In this document: positions 18,601 through 30,761 of the stretch, in pieces | Layout of the letters: each line of letters starts with the position of its first letter | Numbering within the stretch: position 1 is the stretch's first letter | NCBI RefSeq assembly: GCF_000024425.1 | Contig: NC_013946.1 | Coordinates: forward strand, 3,033,458-3,097,457 | DNA: 64,000 nt | Source: Meiothermus ruber DSM 1279 | GTDB lineage: Bacteria; Deinococcota; Deinococci; Deinococcales; Thermaceae | Direction: 5' to 3' | The notes under the pieces: model-generated | Told to the model about the DNA's origin: nothing | Databases searched by the model: none | The model's input: only the letters and a program-made list of their open reading frames with translations | Made by a program: the position numbers and the translations under genes

Positions 18601-20166
18601 GTCCACCGGTTCATCCCCGCGGGTGCGGGGAATACAAAGACCCTCGGTCTGGACGTAGGGCTACAGGACGGTTCATCCCCGCGGGTGCGGGGAATACGGC
18701 GTACTCCTGGCCGAAGATCAGGCTTAAGACGGTTCATCCCCGCGGGTGCGGGGAATACGCTGGCGCATGGCCGCTCGAGCATCTCATGGCCCGGTTCATC
18801 CCCGCGGGTGCGGGGAATACGTTGTAGGGCGGGGCTCCCTGCCCGACCAGGGCGGTTCATCCCCGCGGGTGCGGGGAATACGCACCGGGTACCAGTCGAG
18901 GGCCTGAGGGAGCGGTTCATCCCCGCGGGTGCGGGGAATACGTCCTGCCCGAGCATTTCGCGCTCGTGCAGTTCGGTTCATCCCCGCGGGTGCGGGGAAT
19001 ACTCCGACGAGCCCAAGCCGGTGCTGCGCTTTCTCGGTTCATCCCCGCGGGTGCGGGGAATACTGTACCGGGCGGCTCAAAACGCGCTACAAGAGCGGTT
19101 CATCCCCGCGGGTGCGGGGAATACTCAGGCTCGGGGGCGGCCCAGGGGCAGGCCGCCGGTTCATCCCCGCGGGTGCGGGGAATACGGACGCGGATGGGTA
19201 TTTCTCTCATGCGTCACCTCGGTTCATCCCCGCGGGTGCGGGGAATACTGCGCAAACATTCGGTGCCGATAGGGTACGCTCGGTTCATCCCCGCGGGTGC
19301 GGGGAATACGTTAGCGAGTCAGGGGATATTTACAGGATTTCCGGTTCATCCCCGCGGGTGCGGGGAATACGGACGCGGATGGGTATTTCTCTCATGCGTC
19401 ACCTCGGTTCATCCCCGCGGGTGCGGGGAATACTGCGCAAACATTCGGTGCCGATAGGGTACGCTCGGTTCATCCCCGCGGGTGCGGGGAATACGTTAGC
19501 GAGTCAGGGGATATTTACAGGATTTCCGGTTCATCCCCGCGGGTGCGGGGAATACGTCGCCGGGCACCTGGCTGCCGTACAGGCGCTCGGTTCATCCCCG
19601 CGGGTGCGGGGAATACCAGCTCTACACCCAGCACATCGGATCCGGCACCGGTTCATCCCCGCGGGTGCGGGGAATACTCATCGGGACAATCAAGAACGGC
19701 TCAGGGACTTCGGTTCATCCCCGCGGGTGCGGGGAATACGCGACGCTGGGCTGTGCAACGACGCTCTGCCCGGTTCATCCCCGCGGGTGCGGGGAATACC
19801 CGCTCCACTAGCCTGTAGGTCCAGTATACGTCGGTTCATCCCCGCGGGTGCGGGAAATACTGCAGGTGGCTACTGTGGCTGTGGCCACTATTCGGTTCAT
19901 CCCCGCGGGTGCGGGGAATACGGGGACGCCCCGATTGATAAGTGGGGCGGATCTGGTTCATCCCCGCGGGTGCGGGGAATACGCGGCGCTGCTCTTTTCG
20001 TTTTTCCCGTTTGCTCGGTTCATCCCCGCGGGTGCGGGGAATACGCTGCTGACCGTGCTGGGGGACACGGCATCGGCCGGTTCATCCCCGCGGGTGCGGG
20101 GAATACGTTGAACGGTCCGTTGAGGACAGGGTGCTTTCGGTTCATCCCCGCGGGTGCGGGGAATAC
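15611..20166 (-). CRISPR. Type I-E CRISPR array, 75 repeats and 74 spacers
   Basis: I count 75 repeats of 29 bp at about 61-bp steps. On the plus strand each starts CGGTTCATCC and ends GGGGAATAC; the inner hairpin is CCCCGC-loop-GCGGGG. Read on the minus strand it begins GTATTCCCCGC and ends ATGAACCG, the type I-E pattern with an eight-base 5' handle, so transcription is minus, away from cas2. Spacers are mostly 32-33 bp (range 30-34). Variant repeats: first base or second base changed at 15611, 18116 and 19954, and an internal G to A in the copy at 19832. A three-spacer block is duplicated at 19186-19555. Confidence 0.98.
19186..19555 (-). repeat. Tandem duplication of a three-spacer block inside the array
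   Basis: Spacers at 19186-19219, 19249-19280 and 19310-19341 recur in the same order at 19371-19404, 19434-19465 and 19495-19526. The unit is 185 bp including three repeats. Such blocks arise by unequal recombination between repeats. Confidence 0.95.
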
Positions 20167-23971: not shown

Positions 23972-24469
23972 CTATTGCGATAGATTGAGATCGATCTGTA
24001 GCCGAACAACCTTCCACCCCAGGCCCTGGCGTTCCATGACCAGGCCTTCGTTGGGGTTATCTTTAGCGTGAATAAACGCTTCGGAGAGACCGCGGCGCTT
24101 GATGCGCCAGTGGGTCACATTTTGTGTATCGGCCTGCCCCGGCTCCTCTCCCGTACCAACGCTGGCAAGCCCTTCAGGCGTGACGTAAGCATCTATAACC
24201 CGGTCGACCATCGGCCCCACAAAAGCCAGGGCCAGCGCCCCGAAGCCCGTGGTGTCTTTCTCAACTTCTCGCATAAACGCGCGGTTGAGATCGGATTTCA
24301 GGCTTTCCCGCACCCTGGGAAAGTCCACATATCTTGAAACGGCCGAAGCGTTGTTGGTTGCTATGGCCCGCTGCAACCCGCGAAGGGCAAGGTAGGGGGA
24401 GAACCAAAAATAAGCGAACCCCAGCACCATAGCCGCAATCGCTACCCACAACCACTGTTTACTGCGCAT
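23972..24469 (-). CDS. DUF2939-type membrane-anchored protein inside the Cascade operon
   Basis: 165 residues. One N-terminal transmembrane helix or uncleaved signal (WLWVAIAAMVLGFAYFWF, residues 6-23), then the DUF2939 hallmark SPYLALRGLQRAIATNN and SRYVDFPRVRESLKSDL, with the extracytoplasmic remainder (AYVTPEGLASV, WRIKRRGLSEAFIHAKD). DUF2939 has no known biochemical role. The ATG overlaps the end of cse2 by 11 bp and has GGAGGGTGA in front, and cas7 follows after nine bases, so it is a true member of the operon. Canonical type I-E operons have cse2 directly followed by cas7. The open frame upstream of 24469 is a shadow of cse2. Confidence 0.85.
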   Translation of the reverse strand: MRSKQWLWVAIAAMVLGFAYFWFSPYLALRGLQRAIATNNASAVSRYVDFPRVRESLKSDLNRAFMREVEKDTTGFGALALAFVGPMVDRVIDAYVTPEGLASVGTGEEPGQADTQNVTHWRIKRRGLSEAFIHAKDNPNEGLVMERQGLGWKVVRLQIDLNLSQ

Positions 24470-25067
24470 CTTCACCCTCCATGGAGATGGTCTCTTCCTT
24501 AGCAACGGTACGGTAGAAAGCCCTGGCCCATTTCTGTTGCACTGGCTTGCGCTCACGGTTCCAGGCCAGCAGGTCGCGCAGGAGTTCCGACCAGTAGATG
24601 CGGATGTCGTCCTGGCTCTCAATAAGCTGCACCATCTGGCGCAGGCGGTAGGGCAACTGCTCTTCATCGGCATCCAGCAGGGCGATAAAGCGCTGCTCGA
24701 TGCTTTTGGACTGGTCGCGCGCAAGGTAAAGCTGTGCAATGGCGTGACCCAGCGTGCGGCGGTAGCCTTTATTCACGCCTCCTTCATTGTTCTGGCCCAC
24801 CTCAGGCTCCTCTTCATCTTTGCGAAACTGCTCCAGCTCCGATGAAGAGACCGTGCTGGCCCACAAACCGGCCACCAGGTAATAACAAATCCGCTCCCAG
24901 CGATCTTCGTGCTCGTCCTGGATGCGCCCCAGGAACCCCTCAACCAGCGGAACCACCTCCGCTCCCGGCGCATCCAGGCCGCGGCGCATCCGTGCCAGGT
25001 CGGCTGGCGTGCTGCGCTGGCGCAGGTACCGTACAAAAGCCTGTTCTCTACTGACTTCCTTTTGCAC
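24459..25067 (-). CDS. cse2: Cascade small subunit Cse2 (CasB)
   Basis: 202 residues, all helical; two copies stabilise the R-loop along the Cascade belly. Family features are FVRYLRQRSTPADLARMRRGLDAPG and the C-terminal WSELLRDLLAWNRERKPVQQKWARAFY. It is longer than the 160-170 residues common in E. coli and Thermus because of an acidic insertion (KDEEEPEVGQNNEGG). GTG start with AAGGAGG seven bases upstream, located inside the end of cse1. Confidence 0.94.
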   Translation of the reverse strand: MQKEVSREQAFVRYLRQRSTPADLARMRRGLDAPGAEVVPLVEGFLGRIQDEHEDRWERICYYLVAGLWASTVSSSELEQFRKDEEEPEVGQNNEGGVNKGYRRTLGHAIAQLYLARDQSKSIEQRFIALLDADEEQLPYRLRQMVQLIESQDDIRIYWSELLRDLLAWNRERKPVQQKWARAFYRTVAKEETISMEGEDAQ

Positions 25068-26598
25068 CCACTACCTCCTTTTGTTTGTAGATATGGGCCA
25101 GCAAAATGCCCTCGCCCTTGTGAACGGCCCGCAAAGCCCGGGCATCGTCCCCCGCGGCCAAAGCAGCAAGCCGCCAGGCCTGCAGGGCCTCGCGCTGGAG
25201 AATCTCGCGCCAGGCCCGCTCGAGCCGAGCCTGCTGCTTTTCGAAATCGGGGCCGAGCTGGCTTATCCAATCGGCGAAATGGCCCTCGAGCGCCGACCAG
25301 TAAGCCACCTGGTGAGGAAAGCTCCGGGCCAGCTTGCTCACGTCGTCTTTATGGGGCTTGCGATCCCCCATGGACAGCAACCCGGCGGCCAGGGCTCGAG
25401 CAGCCCCATTCAAAACCTCTCCCATCACTTCGGCTTCGTTCAGGCATTGCTCGACAAAAGCGCGCAGGTCGGTCTCGCCCAAAATGGCCTCGGGCAGGCG
25501 GTATATCTCCCCCCGCCAGAGTTCGACCTTGGCCTGATCACTGGCCTGACCCGCCACCATCACGGGGAGGCCCCGCTGCCTGAAATGGCGGCCCAGGGCG
25601 CGGTAAACGTTGCGGGCATGGTCGGCCACGGCCAGCCCCTGGGCCGAGCCGGGCTTGGGCAGCAAAGCGGCAAAGTCGCGCCACAAGGCCCGGCCCTCGC
25701 TAAAGCCGAGGGGGCGCTCTCTGGTGGGGTCTTTGGGGTCAGGGCGAAACGCCACCATCGGGTCGCGCCGAACCTGGCTCTCCTCGTAGCGAACCCCCGA
25801 GGCGTAGGCGATCCAGCGTACGATAGTCTGACCATCTTCCTCCTCAGGGTGCAGGCGCACCGCGCGCGCGAGCCAGGTGTAGCGGTGCACGATGCCCTTG
25901 GCGCTGGCCCTGGCCCGCTCGCAGTCCGCCAGGTCGGCAACCTTCAGGGGCTCCTGCTCCCAGGTGGCGAAATCGTGCTCGTGCTCCCTTTTGGGATAGG
26001 CCACTAGGTTCAGGCACAGCGTCTGGTGGAGGTTGTCGCCCAGCACCAGCGCCAGAGCCGCCGTCGCGACCGGCGCCGTGGCGGTGTGGCACAGCACGCT
26101 CTTGCCTGCAGAAAGGGCAAAGGTCTGGTTGGCCACCAACAGCCGGGCGGCCTCGGCGGGCAGGAGGGGGCGGGGCCTCGAGGTGACGGTGTGGTCGAAG
26201 AGCACCTTGTTGTTGTCGGAGTTGAGTTCGGGGGCCAGCACCGTCCAGGAGCGGCAGGAGCGCTCGAGACTGAAGTCGGGCACCTGGTAGAAGGGCCGCT
26301 CGGGGTGGAACAGGTCGAAGCGATCCCGGTACTTACTCAGATAGGTCTGAATCTTTCCGCGATCGAACCCCTCTTCGAACCACTCGGCCGCCTCGTAGGC
26401 ATCGGCGGGGCCCTCCAGCGCCCGGTGCAGCACCGCCAGCAGCAAGCGGTGCAAGGCCGCCGTCACCAGCGGGCTGGGGTCTTCGATGCGCTCGAACTTG
26501 TGAGCCTCGAGCAGGGCCTGCTCGAGGCTCACAAGCAAAAGCTCGTTTCCCGTTCGCACGGGAATCCAGGGCTGGGTTATTAGATTAAACGTGGGCAA
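25048..26598 (-). CDS. cse1: Cascade large subunit Cse1 (CasA/Cas8e)
   Basis: 516 residues. Cse1 recognises the PAM and recruits Cas3. The family start FNLITQPWIPV is visible, followed by SLEQALLEAHKFERIEDPSPLVTAALHRLLLAVLHR in two parts, ATAPVATAALALVLG, and the C-terminal four-helix bundle. The open frame begins at 26661, but AAAGGAGGTG followed by a TTG at 26598 gives the conserved N terminus; the upstream 21 residues lie in the preceding small gene. TTG is an unusual start and is shared with that small gene. Confidence 0.95.
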   Translation of the reverse strand: MPTFNLITQPWIPVRTGNELLLVSLEQALLEAHKFERIEDPSPLVTAALHRLLLAVLHRALEGPADAYEAAEWFEEGFDRGKIQTYLSKYRDRFDLFHPERPFYQVPDFSLERSCRSWTVLAPELNSDNNKVLFDHTVTSRPRPLLPAEAARLLVANQTFALSAGKSVLCHTATAPVATAALALVLGDNLHQTLCLNLVAYPKREHEHDFATWEQEPLKVADLADCERARASAKGIVHRYTWLARAVRLHPEEEDGQTIVRWIAYASGVRYEESQVRRDPMVAFRPDPKDPTRERPLGFSEGRALWRDFAALLPKPGSAQGLAVADHARNVYRALGRHFRQRGLPVMVAGQASDQAKVELWRGEIYRLPEAILGETDLRAFVEQCLNEAEVMGEVLNGAARALAAGLLSMGDRKPHKDDVSKLARSFPHQVAYWSALEGHFADWISQLGPDFEKQQARLERAWREILQREALQAWRLAALAAGDDARALRAVHKGEGILLAHIYKQKEVVGAKGSQ

Positions 26599-26812: not shown

Positions 26813-26884
26813 GGGAAACACCTCCTTTCTCACCGATGAGCCCTTCTCAACTTGGCGGCGGGCAGGGCTTGTCGGTTTGTTGGT

Positions 26885-26913
26885 AGTGTAATAAAGTTTT
26901 TTGGATGTGTCAA
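26885..26913 (-). promoter_or_regulatory. Promoter of the Cascade-cas1-cas2 operon
   Basis: TTGACA (26908-26913) and TACACT (26885-26890) are separated by exactly 17 bp, a near-consensus housekeeping promoter. The predicted start is near 26878, leaving a 5' leader of about 65 bases before the small ORF. The surrounding 26881-26950 stretch is clearly AT-richer than the genes. Confidence 0.75.
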
Positions 26914-26918
26914 TCCTT

Positions 26919-26941
26919 TGAATCCTAAAAACGACTAACTT
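26919..26941 (-). promoter_or_regulatory. Protospacer-like target of the mini-CRISPR pseudo-spacer, with AAG PAM
   Basis: On the minus strand, AAG (26941-26939) is followed by TTAGTCGTTTTTAGGAT. Compared with the pseudo-spacer TTAGTAGCTTTCAGGAT this gives 14 of 17 matches; mismatches are at positions 6, 8 and 12. AAG is the canonical type I-E PAM. The site ends six bases upstream of the -35 hexamer. Confidence 0.65.
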
Positions 26942-26949
26942 TGACTTTT

Positions 26950-27027
26950 GTTTACATCCCCACTTGTGTGGGGAACTTTTTATCCTGAAAGCTACTAACG
27001 GTTCATCCACGCTTAGGCGAGGAACTC
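26950..27027 (-). CRISPR. Degenerate two-repeat mini-CRISPR between cas3 and the Cascade genes
   Basis: Pseudo-repeat 1 (27027-26999) ends in GGATGAACCG, identical to the array repeat including the eight-base crRNA handle, but its stem has one mispair. Pseudo-repeat 2 (26978-26950) keeps a perfect hairpin CCCCAC-ACAA-GTGGGG, where the fifth base pair has changed on both sides relative to the array repeat (compensatory). Between them is a 20-base pseudo-spacer (26998-26979) instead of 32. Orientation is that of the cas operon and array. Confidence 0.75.
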
Positions 27028-27032
27028 TGACT

Positions 27033-27038
27033 ATCATA
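27033..27038 (-). promoter_or_regulatory. Possible -10 element of the mini-CRISPR RNA
   Basis: TATGAT overlaps the cas3 stop codon and would start a transcript at about 27026, the first base of pseudo-repeat 1. The -35 (TTGGGG at 18-bp distance) is weak; read-through from cas3 is an alternative source of the RNA. Confidence 0.45.
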
Positions 27039-29733
27039 GCGCACTCCCGTAAACCACCCCAAGCTCGGGGTGAAGCTCGAGCACAAGTTCCCCCAGCACC
27101 GCGCACCCTCCCTCGAGCACCACCGGATGGGCATGGGCCAATAGGGGAGTTTCACTCCAGGGCTTGGTGGGCAGGTCGTGGGCTTTCCGATGGGCCTCCA
27201 GGGCCTCGAGGTTGTTTTGCACCAGCTCGTACCGGCTGAGCTTGACCGAGCGGGCAAAGATGCGCCTGGCCTGGGCCAGCTCGAGCTGGCTGGCCAGGCT
27301 CACCCCCTCCTTCCCGCCCGCATCGAGGCAGAGCTGCCCGCCCACCCTATGCAGCAGCACCACCGTGGCGCTGGGGGGGCCTTTGCGGGTTTTGAGCAGG
27401 CTGGGGTCGTCGTCGGGGTTGGGCTCGTCGTCGGGCAGCCTGGTGAAGTCCCGGGGCTCGAGCCAGCCGGTTTCATCGGGGTCGCCAAAAGGCGCGTAGA
27501 AGGCCTCGTCCTGATCTCGGGCGTCCCTTTTTTCCATGCGGGCCTGGGCTTCCTCAAGGGCCCTCTTCCACGCTTCCGAAGGCCCCTGGGGCATGTCGCT
27601 GTAAACCTCCTGCACCAGGCGGTCGATATCGCCCGGAAGCCCGATCCGGGTGCGGTTGCGCAGGGCCAGCCAGCTCCGCAGCAGAACGTAGCGCTCGTAG
27701 ATGCGTTCGGCCGTACCGAAGTCGGGCACCCCTTCGCACTCCAAACCCGCCACCCACAACACCGGTTCGGTGTGGGAATGCCGCTCCTCCGCGCTGCGGG
27801 CGTGGCGGTGCAGCCGCCCTGCGCGCTGCAAAACCAGATCCACCGGGGCCAGGTCGGTGAACATCACATCGAAGTCGAGGTCGAGCGATTGTTCAACCAC
27901 CTGGGTGGCAACCAGGATGGCCCTTTTAGGGCGCTGCCCCTGCTTACCAAACTTAGCTAGAACAAGCTGCTCGCGATTTAAGCGCTCCTCGAGCGGATAG
28001 CGGGCATGAAACAGGTATACCTCCACCCCATCCGAATTGCCCGCCAAAGCCCGGTACAGCTCCTGCGCCCGCTGCACAGTGTTGACAATGCAGGCCACAC
28101 AGCCGCCCCGGCGGGCCTGCTCGAGCGCCTGCTCGGCGATGGCCTCGAGGTCGAGCGGCAAGGCCCGTAGCTGCAGGGTGAGCTGTTTGCACGCCTCAAA
28201 GGTCTCCACCACGGGCATGGGGTTGTCCTTTACGACACGGGTAATGCGGGGGTATGGCTTGTCCTCGGTTATCTTCTCGGCCCCAAACGCCCTGAGCAGA
28301 TTTTCCCGCTTGGCCCTGGGCAGGGTCGCGCTCATCAGCACGACCGATGAATCCAGCGCCCTAAGCCAGCGCACCAGCATCTCGATGAGGCCGCTGGTGT
28401 AGGTGTCGTAGGCGTGCACCTCGTCCAGCACCACCACCCGGTTGCCCAGACCCCACAGCCGCACGAACTGGTGCTTGGTGGGCAGGATGCCCAGGAGGGC
28501 CTGATCCACCGTGCCCACGGCGTACTCGGAGAGCAAACCGCGCTTGCGGTGGGAGAACCAGACCTGGGCCTCCACCCCTTCCTCGCGCTCTTCGGGGCTG
28601 TTGGGGCGCACGCGTATCTCCTGGTAGGCCTCCACCAACTCGCTGGCCCCGTGCAAGAGTTGCAGGTCGAGCTTGCGGGACTGCCCCCAGCGATCCAGAA
28701 AGGCCTTGGCCCGCTCGAACATGAGGTTGCCGGTGGCCTGGGTGGGCAGGGCCACGTACATCCCCCGGTGGCCGTTGGCGGCTTGCAGGCGCAGGTGGGC
28801 GTAGAAGGCCGCCTCGGTCTTGCCTTCGCCCATGGGGGCCTCCACCAGCAATAAGGCGGGGCAATCCACGCCCTCCAGGAGGCGCTCGATGGCAGCTTGC
28901 AGTGGGCGGGCCCTGAACGGCGCTTCGGGGCTACCCAGATAGGCAAAGACCTCTTCCAGGCTTTGCGGCTCGGGCATCAGGGTTTTGCGCTGGAACCAGC
29001 CGATGCCATCGAGCTTTTGCGCGGCCCGCGCCTTGGCCTCCCGGTAATACCCGGCCAGGTCGTCGCCGAGGGGGTGAAAGTCGAGGCTCGAGCCAATCCA
29101 GTCGGCGAAGCTGGTAAGGCCCGCCAGGCGCTCGAAAGCCGCACCCCCGTAGAGCTTAACTTTGGGAGCCTCCCCCACCCCCAGCACCTCGAGCACCGCT
29201 TCGAATAGCTCGCGGCGCACCTCGTCCCAGTTCGCGTTGCCTTTCTCGCGGGTTGTTGCTTTGTCCAGATCGCCCCTTGTTGCCCGGAAGCCGTGGTGCT
29301 CCCCCACCGCCGCTGCGACATTCTGGGCGGCCCGGTATTTCCAACCCCTGGCCTCGAGCAGTTCGGGCAGCACCACCTCGCTGATGATGCTGTGGGAAAG
29401 GTCGTGGGGCGGCGGCGTTGGGTCGCTTGACCAGGTGAGCCCTGTGGCCCAGAGCCGTTCCTTGCCCTCGGGCCATTTCTGCTGGAAGGCCGGGCTGGCC
29501 TTGCCGATATCGTGCAAGCCCGCCAGAGCGCAAACCCAGGCCTTGGCTTGCTGGGGCTCCAGGCTTAGATCGTGGGCGTAAAGCTCGAGGGTCTTGGGGG
29601 GCTCGCGCTCGAGGATCGCCTCGGCGCAGGCCGCCACGTCGAGCAAGTGTGCAATGAGCGGATGCCAGGCGCCCTGCTCCCGGCCCCGGTCGCTTTTGGC
29701 CCACAGCGCCCTGGCGGTCTCCGAAAGGCTCAT
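27034..29733 (-). CDS. cas3: CRISPR-associated helicase/nuclease Cas3
   Basis: 899 residues. Cas3 is recruited by Cascade and degrades target DNA. The N-terminal HD nuclease has WHPLIAH (H24, H29) and LHDIGK (H74-D75); the SF2 helicase has Walker [17 protein letters not shown] as the DExH box, LMSATLPR as motif III, and [14 protein letters not shown] and QRAGRLHRH as motifs V and VI. The ATG at 29733 overlaps the WYL-regulator stop (ATGA) and follows GGAAGGTGGG; the open frame further upstream to 29919 is a shadow. It is separated from cse1 by the promoter and mini-CRISPR region. Confidence 0.96.
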
Positions 29734-30761
29734 GAACCCACCTTCCCCTTCATCCCTTCGAACCCCCTGGCGTACTCTTCCAGCACCTGCCGCGCCTCCG
29801 AAAGCCACCGCTGCCGCAGGCGGGCCGGTTCCAACACCTCCACCCGAGGCCCCCAGCTCTGCACCCAGGACAGAAGCTCCAGGGGGAAGTTGTCGTTGTT
29901 GGTGCCCACGGTAATGCAAACCTCGAGGCCCCCGTCGGGGAGCCTCGAGGCAATACGCAGGTTGGGGTAGCCGCCCTCCAGGATGCGGTAGGCGGCCTCA
30001 GGGCGGAAGCGAAGCCGAACCTCCACCGGCACGCCGCCGCTGCTGCCCACCACCCCCCAGGCATTGGAGAGGTAGTGGCGGGGGTCGAAGTCCGGCGGGA
30101 TGGTGTAGGCCCCCGGCTCGCCCACCGCCCGCACCCGGCGCATCCGGCTCAGCTTGTAGGTGCGCAGGGCTTGGTGGTAGCCGCGCTCGAGCCCGATCAC
30201 ATACATCCCCAGGTTGGTGCGGGCCACCTCGAGGAAGTAGACCTCGAGCAGATTTTTGCGCGGCCGGCCCGAGCCACCGGGCTTGAGGTAGTCGAACTCG
30301 ATACGCTGGCGCTTGAACCAGGCCTCGGCCACCACGGCCATGGCCTGCCCTTCATCGCGGCGCTGCAGGGTGCGGCGCTCGAGGTCCTCGGTGCTCTTGA
30401 GCGCCAGCTCCTGGGCCGGGGAGGGCAGCCGCCGGGCCAGCTTTTTGAGGGCCGATAGGTAGGTGGGTTCGTAGCCGGGGGTGTGGTGGTAGAGCATCCG
30501 CAGGGCGCTGTGCGTGACCAGGGCCTCCACCGGGCTCAGCTCGTGGCTTTGCAGCAGCTGATACTGTGGAGAACGCCCCACCCTGCCCACCTCCACCGCC
30601 TGCAAGTCCTCGAGCAGGTAGCGCAGGGCCGTGCGCTTATGCACCCCCAGCACCTGGGCCAGCTCATAGGCCGTGTAGGGCCTGGCCGCCAGCAGGTCGC
30701 GGGCCTCCACTAAGCGCAGCGCCTTTCTGTAATCCGCACTTTCTCGGCGTATTTGGCCCAT
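29730..30761 (-). CDS. WYL-domain transcriptional regulator coupled to cas3
   Basis: 343 residues. An N-terminal HTH of the DeoR/YafY type (LLAARPYTAYELAQVLGVHKRTALRYL, residues 24-50) is followed by a WYL sensor domain (residues 155-240; FDYLKPGGSGRPRKNLLEVYFLE, RTNLGMYVIGLERG) and a WCX-like C terminus (VEVRLRFRPEAAYRI). WYL proteins bind single-stranded nucleic acid or small ligands and regulate DNA-damage and phage-defence genes, including CRISPR loci. The ATGA overlap with cas3 makes it the first gene of the cas3 transcript. Target sites are not evident. Confidence 0.88.
   Translation of the reverse strand: MGQIRRESADYRKALRLVEARDLLAARPYTAYELAQVLGVHKRTALRYLLEDLQAVEVGRVGRSPQYQLLQSHELSPVEALVTHSALRMLYHHTPGYEPTYLSALKKLARRLPSPAQELALKSTEDLERRTLQRRDEGQAMAVVAEAWFKRQRIEFDYLKPGGSGRPRKNLLEVYFLEVARTNLGMYVIGLERGYHQALRTYKLSRMRRVRAVGEPGAYTIPPDFDPRHYLSNAWGVVGSSGGVPVEVRLRFRPEAAYRILEGGYPNLRIASRLPDGGLEVCITVGTNNDNFPLELLSWVQSWGPRVEVLEPARLRQRWLSEARQVLEEYARGFEGMKGKVGS

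Follow-up and report, generated by a model that had tools for sequence, protein, structure and literature searches.

The type I-E CRISPR-Cas locus of Meiothermus ruber DSM 1279 possesses, in addition to its large array, two degenerate repeats and a short pseudo-spacer lodged between cas3 and the first Cascade gene, cse1. The question raised by this locus is what such an ectopic mini-CRISPR does and whether its guide is directed at the cas operon itself. The window (the whole 64-kb stretch of DNA that was analysed) is the end of a single-contig genome of 3,097,457 bp. Its minus strand carries, in this order, genes for a WYL-domain regulator, cas3, cse1, cse2, cas7, cas5, cas6, and cas1, and a large CRISPR array (15.6-20.3 kb of the window; repeat GTATTCCCCGCACCCGCGGGGATGAACCG in crRNA orientation) is located past the cas operon. 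The array holds a perfect 185-nt tandem duplication (window 19156-19525), in which three repeat-spacer units are doubled. Inside the Cascade operon, between cse2 and cas7, lies a DUF2939 gene (Pfam PF11159, E 4e-27; ~23972-24470, minus strand) with a hydrophobic N-terminus; T. thermophilus HB8 has no such gene at the same place. As argued below, the M. ruber mini-CRISPR is probably (at about 80%) a Cas-regulating RNA (CreR) locus, through which Cascade would limit its own synthesis.

Anatomy of the mini-CRISPR

A sequence-only reading of this DNA had described two degenerate repeats flanking a 20-nt pseudo-spacer in cas orientation, and every coordinate of that anatomy was reproduced base for base (Table 1). 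Repeat 1 retains a crRNA handle identical to that of the array, as had been claimed; its stem contains one internal mismatch and has a folding energy of -7.3 kcal/mol. The compensatory change ascribed to the Cas6e hairpin of repeat 2 is also present: a G-C pair of the array repeat has become A-U, and the stem still folds at -12.8 kcal/mol (array repeat, -14.3 kcal/mol). When the window was scanned for isolated degenerate repeat copies, repeat 1 alone was found. In being ectopic, built of degenerate repeats, and adjacent to the cas operon, the mini-CRISPR resembles CreR loci.

A candidate promoter of the mini-CRISPR is located at the end of cas3. The motif TTGGSG-18 nt-TAWGAT, which is a consensus match only, recurs in G000, G001, G108, and G019; it was missed by a stricter sigma-70-like promoter scan. 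Its -10 element, TATGAT, is not found in the cas3-cse1 gap of M. taiwanensis, a gap without the cassette.

Table 1. Features of the cas3-cse1 region of M. ruber (positions in the window)
Feature	Position	Strand	Sequence	Remark
cas3 reading frame	27034..29919	-		upstream of the mini-CRISPR; outside control of the cse1 promoter
Candidate -35 of mini-CRISPR promoter	27057..27062	-	TTGGGG	within the cas3 3' end
Candidate -10 of mini-CRISPR promoter	27033..27038	-	TATGAT	overlaps the cas3 stop codon
Degenerate repeat 1	26999-27027	-	GAGTTCCTCGCCTAAGCGTGGATGAACCG	keeps the array's 5' handle ATGAACCG at 26999-27006
Pseudo-spacer (guide), 20 nt	26979-26998	-	TTAGTAGCTTTCAGGATAAA	between the two degenerate repeats
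Degenerate repeat 2	26950-26978	-	AAGTTCCCCACACAAGTGGGGATGTAAAC	Cas6e hairpin kept; handle decayed to ATGTAAAC
PAM of self-target	26939..26941	-	AAG	directly flanks the protospacer-like site
Protospacer-like target	26922..26938 (26919-26938 counting 20 nt)	-	TTAGTCGTTTTTAGGAT	14/17 with the guide
-35 of small ORF and cse1 operon promoter	26908..26913	-	TTGACA	from sigma-70-like scan
-10 of small ORF and cse1 operon promoter	26885..26890	-	TACACT	spacer 17
5' UTR start hairpin	26832..26876	-	invariant loop GCCGCCAAG	same place in L092, L093, L098, L099
Conserved small ORF, 66 aa	26612..26812	-	TTG start	between promoter and cse1; ends few nt before cse1
cse1/casA	25048..26598	-	TTG start at 26598	first of the Cascade genes in the controlled operon

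A PAM-flanked target at the cse1 promoter

The self-target attributed to the guide stood up in full, including the preceding AAG and the mismatches at positions 6, 8, and 12; nine of the ten seed positions (1-5 and 7-11) are paired. The -35 element said to adjoin it was recovered by the promoter scan as TTGACA, part of TTGACA-17-TACACT (26913-26885), the sole sigma-70-like promoter found on the minus strand of the cas3-cse1 gap. The small ORF, cse1, and the rest of the operon thus have a near-consensus promoter whose -35 is immediately preceded by the target, and this combination of limited complementarity and a PAM at the promoter of a cas operon is another trait of CreRs. With the guide shuffled, the chance of a 14/17 match beside a PAM in the M. 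ruber gap is about 5e-5, and no such match arose in 1000 dinucleotide shuffles of the downstream 170 nt. Genome-wide, there is no other PAM-flanked site within three mismatches of the M. ruber guide.

Occurrence of the cassette in relatives

The cas3-cse1 gaps of relatives were gathered by Cse1 searches over the family and the phylum and by a search with the small ORF. The same cassette, with differing guides, occupies this gap in ten further Deinococcota genomes (G001, G018, G019, G108, G031, G039, G047, G049, G095, and G053), among which G053 is a MAG of locus L037 and G095 a draft assembly. T. thermophilus SNM7-6 carries it on a plasmid, between cas3 and cse1. The distance from handle to repeat 2 gives a guide length of 19-20 nt in nine of the 11 loci and 31-32 nt in G108 and G095, two classes that differ by two six-base Cascade segments. 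A T-run or T-rich sequence follows repeat 2 in Thermus-type loci, giving it the look of an intrinsic terminator that could also halt read-through from cas3; repeat 2 of M. ruber has no T-run.

Many relatives lack the cassette (within L016 to L031 and L100 in Thermus, and L003 to L009 in Meiothermus/Calidithermus), and in these, cas3 nearly abuts cse1. M. taiwanensis, the Cse1 of which is 99% identical to that of M. ruber, has no cassette, and its cas3 runs almost directly into cse1. On the Cse1 tree, the scattered presence of the cassette demands at least six gains or losses. Because it is missing from the near-identical M. taiwanensis locus and from many others, the cassette is, to judge by this distribution, a dispensable module that has been repeatedly lost or exchanged.

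Guide and target co-evolve

The M. ruber guide as compared across loci is TTAGTAGCTTTCAGGAT; the guides of the other loci are TTGGTAGGACAAAGGGT, GTAGTTGTGCAAAGGGA, TTGGTAGCGCATAGGGT, TGGTTGGCTCTTGAGTG, TGTTTCGCTTTTGAGTT, TGGTTAGCTTTTGTGTT, TGCTCTTCGTTTGCTTT, TGGCAGTCAGCAACGTG, and CTGTATTTGATGACGTT. The best gap site on either strand has an accepted PAM in all 11 genomes (AAG in ten, ATG in one), and each guide pairs with the best site of its own gap at 9 or 10 of positions 1-5 and 7-11. When guides and gaps are swapped between species, an average of only 6.4 of these ten seed positions pair. The sum over own pairs was reached by none of 200,000 permutations (duplicate G018 dropped), a result drawn from loci that are not all independent, as the Meiothermus-type loci share ancestry and several Thermus-type loci do likewise. 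The Meiothermus-type group, the Thermus-type group, G095, and G053 differ in guide sequence, and the two groups also differ in target orientation.

The distribution of mismatches follows the rule established for CreA, in which pairing at positions 1-5 and 7-11 is required and positions 6 and 12 are free (PMC8501985). Mismatches concentrate at the two positions that had been predicted to be free: 19 of the 22 cases at positions 6 and 12 are mismatched, whereas the remaining ten positions account for 6 in 110 (Fisher P 6e-15). Among Meiothermus-type loci, guide and target have both changed at positions 1, 3, 9, 10, 11, and 16, with 6 and 12 free. Had pseudo-spacer and promoter site diverged independently, this would, by the criterion named beforehand, have spoken against self-targeting; the opposite was found, pairing being kept in 11 of 11 loci despite sequence change. 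The excess of own over swapped pairing, together with the clustering of mismatches at 6 and 12, indicates that guide and target co-evolve under Cascade's base-pairing rule. Across the 11 loci, pairing is thus selectively maintained in the Cascade register, as is characteristic of CreRs, and this pattern strongly supports Cascade as the reader of the pairing. A chance match between guide and target is ruled out by the guide shuffles, the gap shuffles, the swap test, and the position pattern.

It might be supposed that the cassette is a functionless leftover of a decaying short array, the likeness to the promoter stemming from local duplication. Degenerate repeats, a short guide, and absence from many loci would be expected of such a remnant; however, guides and targets that differ between species still pair, with changes on both sides, mismatches are confined to the flipped-out positions, the PAM is conserved, and the targets lie in two opposite orientations. 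This pairing pattern contradicts neutral decay, local duplication would not yield it, and we regard a remnant as extremely improbable.

A further regularity concerns the part of the guide beyond the seed. In loci with one seed mismatch (at position 8 in M. ruber, G001, and G018, at 9 in G108, and at 3 in G019 and G049), four or five of positions 13-17 are paired, whereas in loci with a perfect seed (G031, G039, SNM7-6, G047, G095, and G053), only zero to two are, a pattern that was noticed post hoc and in which the first group is mostly one lineage, with G049 separate. Such a trade between seed mismatch and pairing at 13-17 would be consistent with selection toward a set affinity.

Two geometries at the -35 element

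The target of the M. ruber group is on the minus strand and directly precedes the -35. Thermus-type loci and G095 have theirs on the opposite strand, where the complement of CTT in CTTGACA or CTTGAAA serves as the PAM; Cascade would therefore sit on the -35 itself. Placement at the -35 has thus been reached by two different geometries. No ORF separates the G053 target from cse1; this target lies at a candidate promoter (extended -10 TGCTATACT) some 50-75 nt ahead of the gene.

These placements bear on the proposal that the main object of control is transcription passing through the gap, either read-through from cas3 or the guide's own transcript, with Cascade acting, for example, as a roadblock that sets the cas3:Cascade ratio. 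The target does lie between the mini-CRISPR and cse1, the upstream gene is the co-directional cas3, and repeat 2 of Thermus-type loci resembles a terminator. However, both geometries put the target at the -35, and that of G053 lies at a candidate promoter; this suits a block of initiation, and roadblock repression by Cascade has been reported to be weaker (PMC5904413). A roadblock as the principal function is thus judged very unlikely.

The small ORF and the 5' UTR

Between the promoter and cse1 there are two elements that the sequence-only reading did not mention, a 66-codon ORF and a covarying hairpin in the 5' UTR; nor did it mention that cas3 escapes the promoter. The ORF is conserved in five Meiothermus-type loci (M. 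ruber, G001, G018, G019, and G108), where it encodes 58-67 aa with a C-terminal G-[SD]-L-D motif and is always first behind the guided promoter. Its dN is 0.12-0.30 with dS high or saturated (dN/dS 0.55 in G001-G018, the sole close pair), and these comparisons indicate purifying selection on it within the Meiothermus group. No family match was obtained in Pfam, NCBIfam, or PHROGs, nor any match in phage genomes; the ORF of one relative gave one weak PADLOC match. The predicted structure consists of two helices and a poorly defined tail (pLDDT 75). Thermus-type loci have an ORF of different sequence at the same place, also ending in G-[SD]-L-D, and homology between the two is not established (hhalign probability 4%).

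The hairpin is situated at the start of the 5' UTR; among five sequences, four pairs of its stem have changed on both sides. It has no Rfam match above the gathering score and is possibly a protein- or ribosome-binding element. A separate inverted repeat (5-7 pairs, 5-nt loop; e.g., CCCGACAGGGGTTGTCGGG and ACGACACCATTTGTCGT) occurs 27-49 nt 5' of the cse1 match in six Thermus and related loci (L013, L016, L023, L062, L072, and L102), among which it shows both-sided changes; imperfect copies are visible in other loci.

The position of the ORF invites comparison with CreTA- or CrePA-type toxin-antitoxin modules, in which the guide would repress a toxin, here the small ORF, that is freed upon loss or inhibition of Cascade, the downstream cse1 being incidental. 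Conservation of the ORF directly behind the promoter agrees with this explanation, as does the presence of a different small ORF there in Thermus-type loci; in H. hispanica, creTA is likewise flanked by the cas6 and cas8 genes of a cas operon (PMC8501985), and sporadic presence of the cassette suits an addiction module as well. However, the guide-target match outlives the ORF, which is reduced to 26 codons in G031, carries a frameshift in G095 (possibly an assembly error in this draft), and is missing from G053. Moreover, derepression would produce Cascade too, given that the M. ruber ORF ends a few nucleotides before cse1, and the ORF matches no toxin family. Because three relatives keep guide and target with the small ORF truncated, frameshifted, or absent, a toxin-antitoxin function is considered unlikely.

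Another view of the ORF is that the 66-aa protein is the payload of a self-contained switch and represents a novel class of small proteins repressed by Cascade; it would act on the CRISPR machinery as an inhibitor, a regulator, or a toxin and be produced only upon depletion or blocking of Cascade, with guides tuned to a set affinity by trading seed mismatch against pairing at 13-17. We hold this combined proposal to be doubtful.

Proposed mechanism of Cascade autoregulation

The CreR reading is favoured because the elements on which it draws have been published: the CreA pairing rule, binding of E. coli Cascade to short matches, repression by short spacers, and autorepression by a type I-E CreR. 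E. coli I-E Cascade binds in vivo, without cleavage, to sites with AAG and as few as five seed pairs (PMC5904413), and in a type I-B system, spacers of <=24 nt repress without cleavage or priming (PMC10989794). CreRs are known from I-B, I-E, and V-A systems (Liu et al. 2023, as cited in PMC13131331; review PMC12737573).

From the anatomy of the cassette, its conservation, the co-evolution of guide and target, and the placement at the promoter, the following course of events can be proposed. The mini-CRISPR would be transcribed from the end of cas3, and Cas6e would cut at repeat 1, leaving the handle ATGAACCG, such that the expected 5' end of the short RNA is ATGAACCGTTAGTAG; the hairpin of repeat 2 would form its 3' end. 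Loaded into Cascade, this RNA would direct binding to the AAG-flanked site directly 5' of the -35 and thereby hinder RNA polymerase. The controlled operon would comprise the small ORF, cse1, cse2, cas7, cas5, cas6, and cas1, and Cascade would in this way limit its own production. Given the overlap with the promoter and the published CreR and CreA experiments, we infer that the Cascade operon is repressed and that loss of Cascade or anti-CRISPRs would relieve the repression; either array crRNAs competing for Cascade or an anti-CRISPR disabling it would lift the block. Because the guide is short and carries mismatches at 6 and 12 plus one more in the seed, binding would be possible without R-loop completion and therefore, it is proposed, without Cas3 cleavage of the chromosome.

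Several points stand against autoregulation by a CreR. Haloarcula CreA needs all ten seed pairs (PMC8501985), and the M. ruber guide has a seed mismatch at position 8, for which the longer pairing at 13-17 may compensate. Read-through from cas3 into cse1 could bypass the promoter, which is conceivable because cas3 lies upstream and repeat 2 of M. ruber has no blocking T-run. In addition, short-match Cascade sites in E. coli caused no measurable repression of nearby genes (PMC5904413), and the cassette is dispensable.

Relation to known systems

The M. ruber unit shares with CreRs, as these are summarized in the sources cited above, a degenerate mini-CRISPR beside cas genes and limited complementarity with a PAM at the Cascade promoter, with no dedicated toxin required. 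Set against those summaries, it is distinguished by its occurrence in Thermaceae and relatives, by a small conserved ORF and a structured 5' UTR before cse1, and by a 20-nt guide with one seed mismatch and extra pairing at 13-17. The CreA of CreTA (H. hispanica and H. hubeiense; PMC8501985, PMC9458426) likewise comprises two degenerate repeats and a pseudo-spacer, pairs at 1-5 and 7-11 while leaving 6 and 12 unconstrained, and has a PAM overlapping a promoter element, Cascade being the presumed effector in both. However, CreTA controls a small toxic RNA with tandem rare codons, whereas the M. ruber unit leads into the Cascade genes, and in its relatives, the intervening ORF can be lost and the guide kept. 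CrePA, in which CreA represses a protein toxin according to a review (PMC12737573), is similar in having a small protein gene directly behind the guided promoter. It differs, as far as that account goes, in that the M. ruber ORF matches no toxin family and is absent or broken in three guide-keeping relatives, and cse1 follows co-directionally.

Self-regulation of an effector through a short-match guide also has a parallel outside type I systems. Workman et al. reportedly described type II-A Cas9 as autoregulated at its own promoter by a guide RNA with a short match, an arrangement relieved by anti-CRISPRs; later work on it is cited in PMC13131331. That case involves another effector and another RNA and has no homology to the M. 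ruber system.

Significance

A CreR-type device is already described elsewhere, and a probable one is here found in Thermaceae and relatives; a literature search limited to open-licence papers returned no reports on Thermus or Meiothermus. Natural, covarying Cascade guide-target pairs offer an evolutionary read-out of the positions that matter to type I-E systems in living cells. The apparent trade between seed mismatch and pairing at 13-17, like the guide lengths of 19-20 versus 31-32 nt, hints at testable rules by which a guide may bind but not cut. The finding would extend RNA-guided self-regulation to Thermus and Meiothermus, genera whose heat-stable I-E Cascade is under study; T. thermophilus is, in addition, genetically manipulable.
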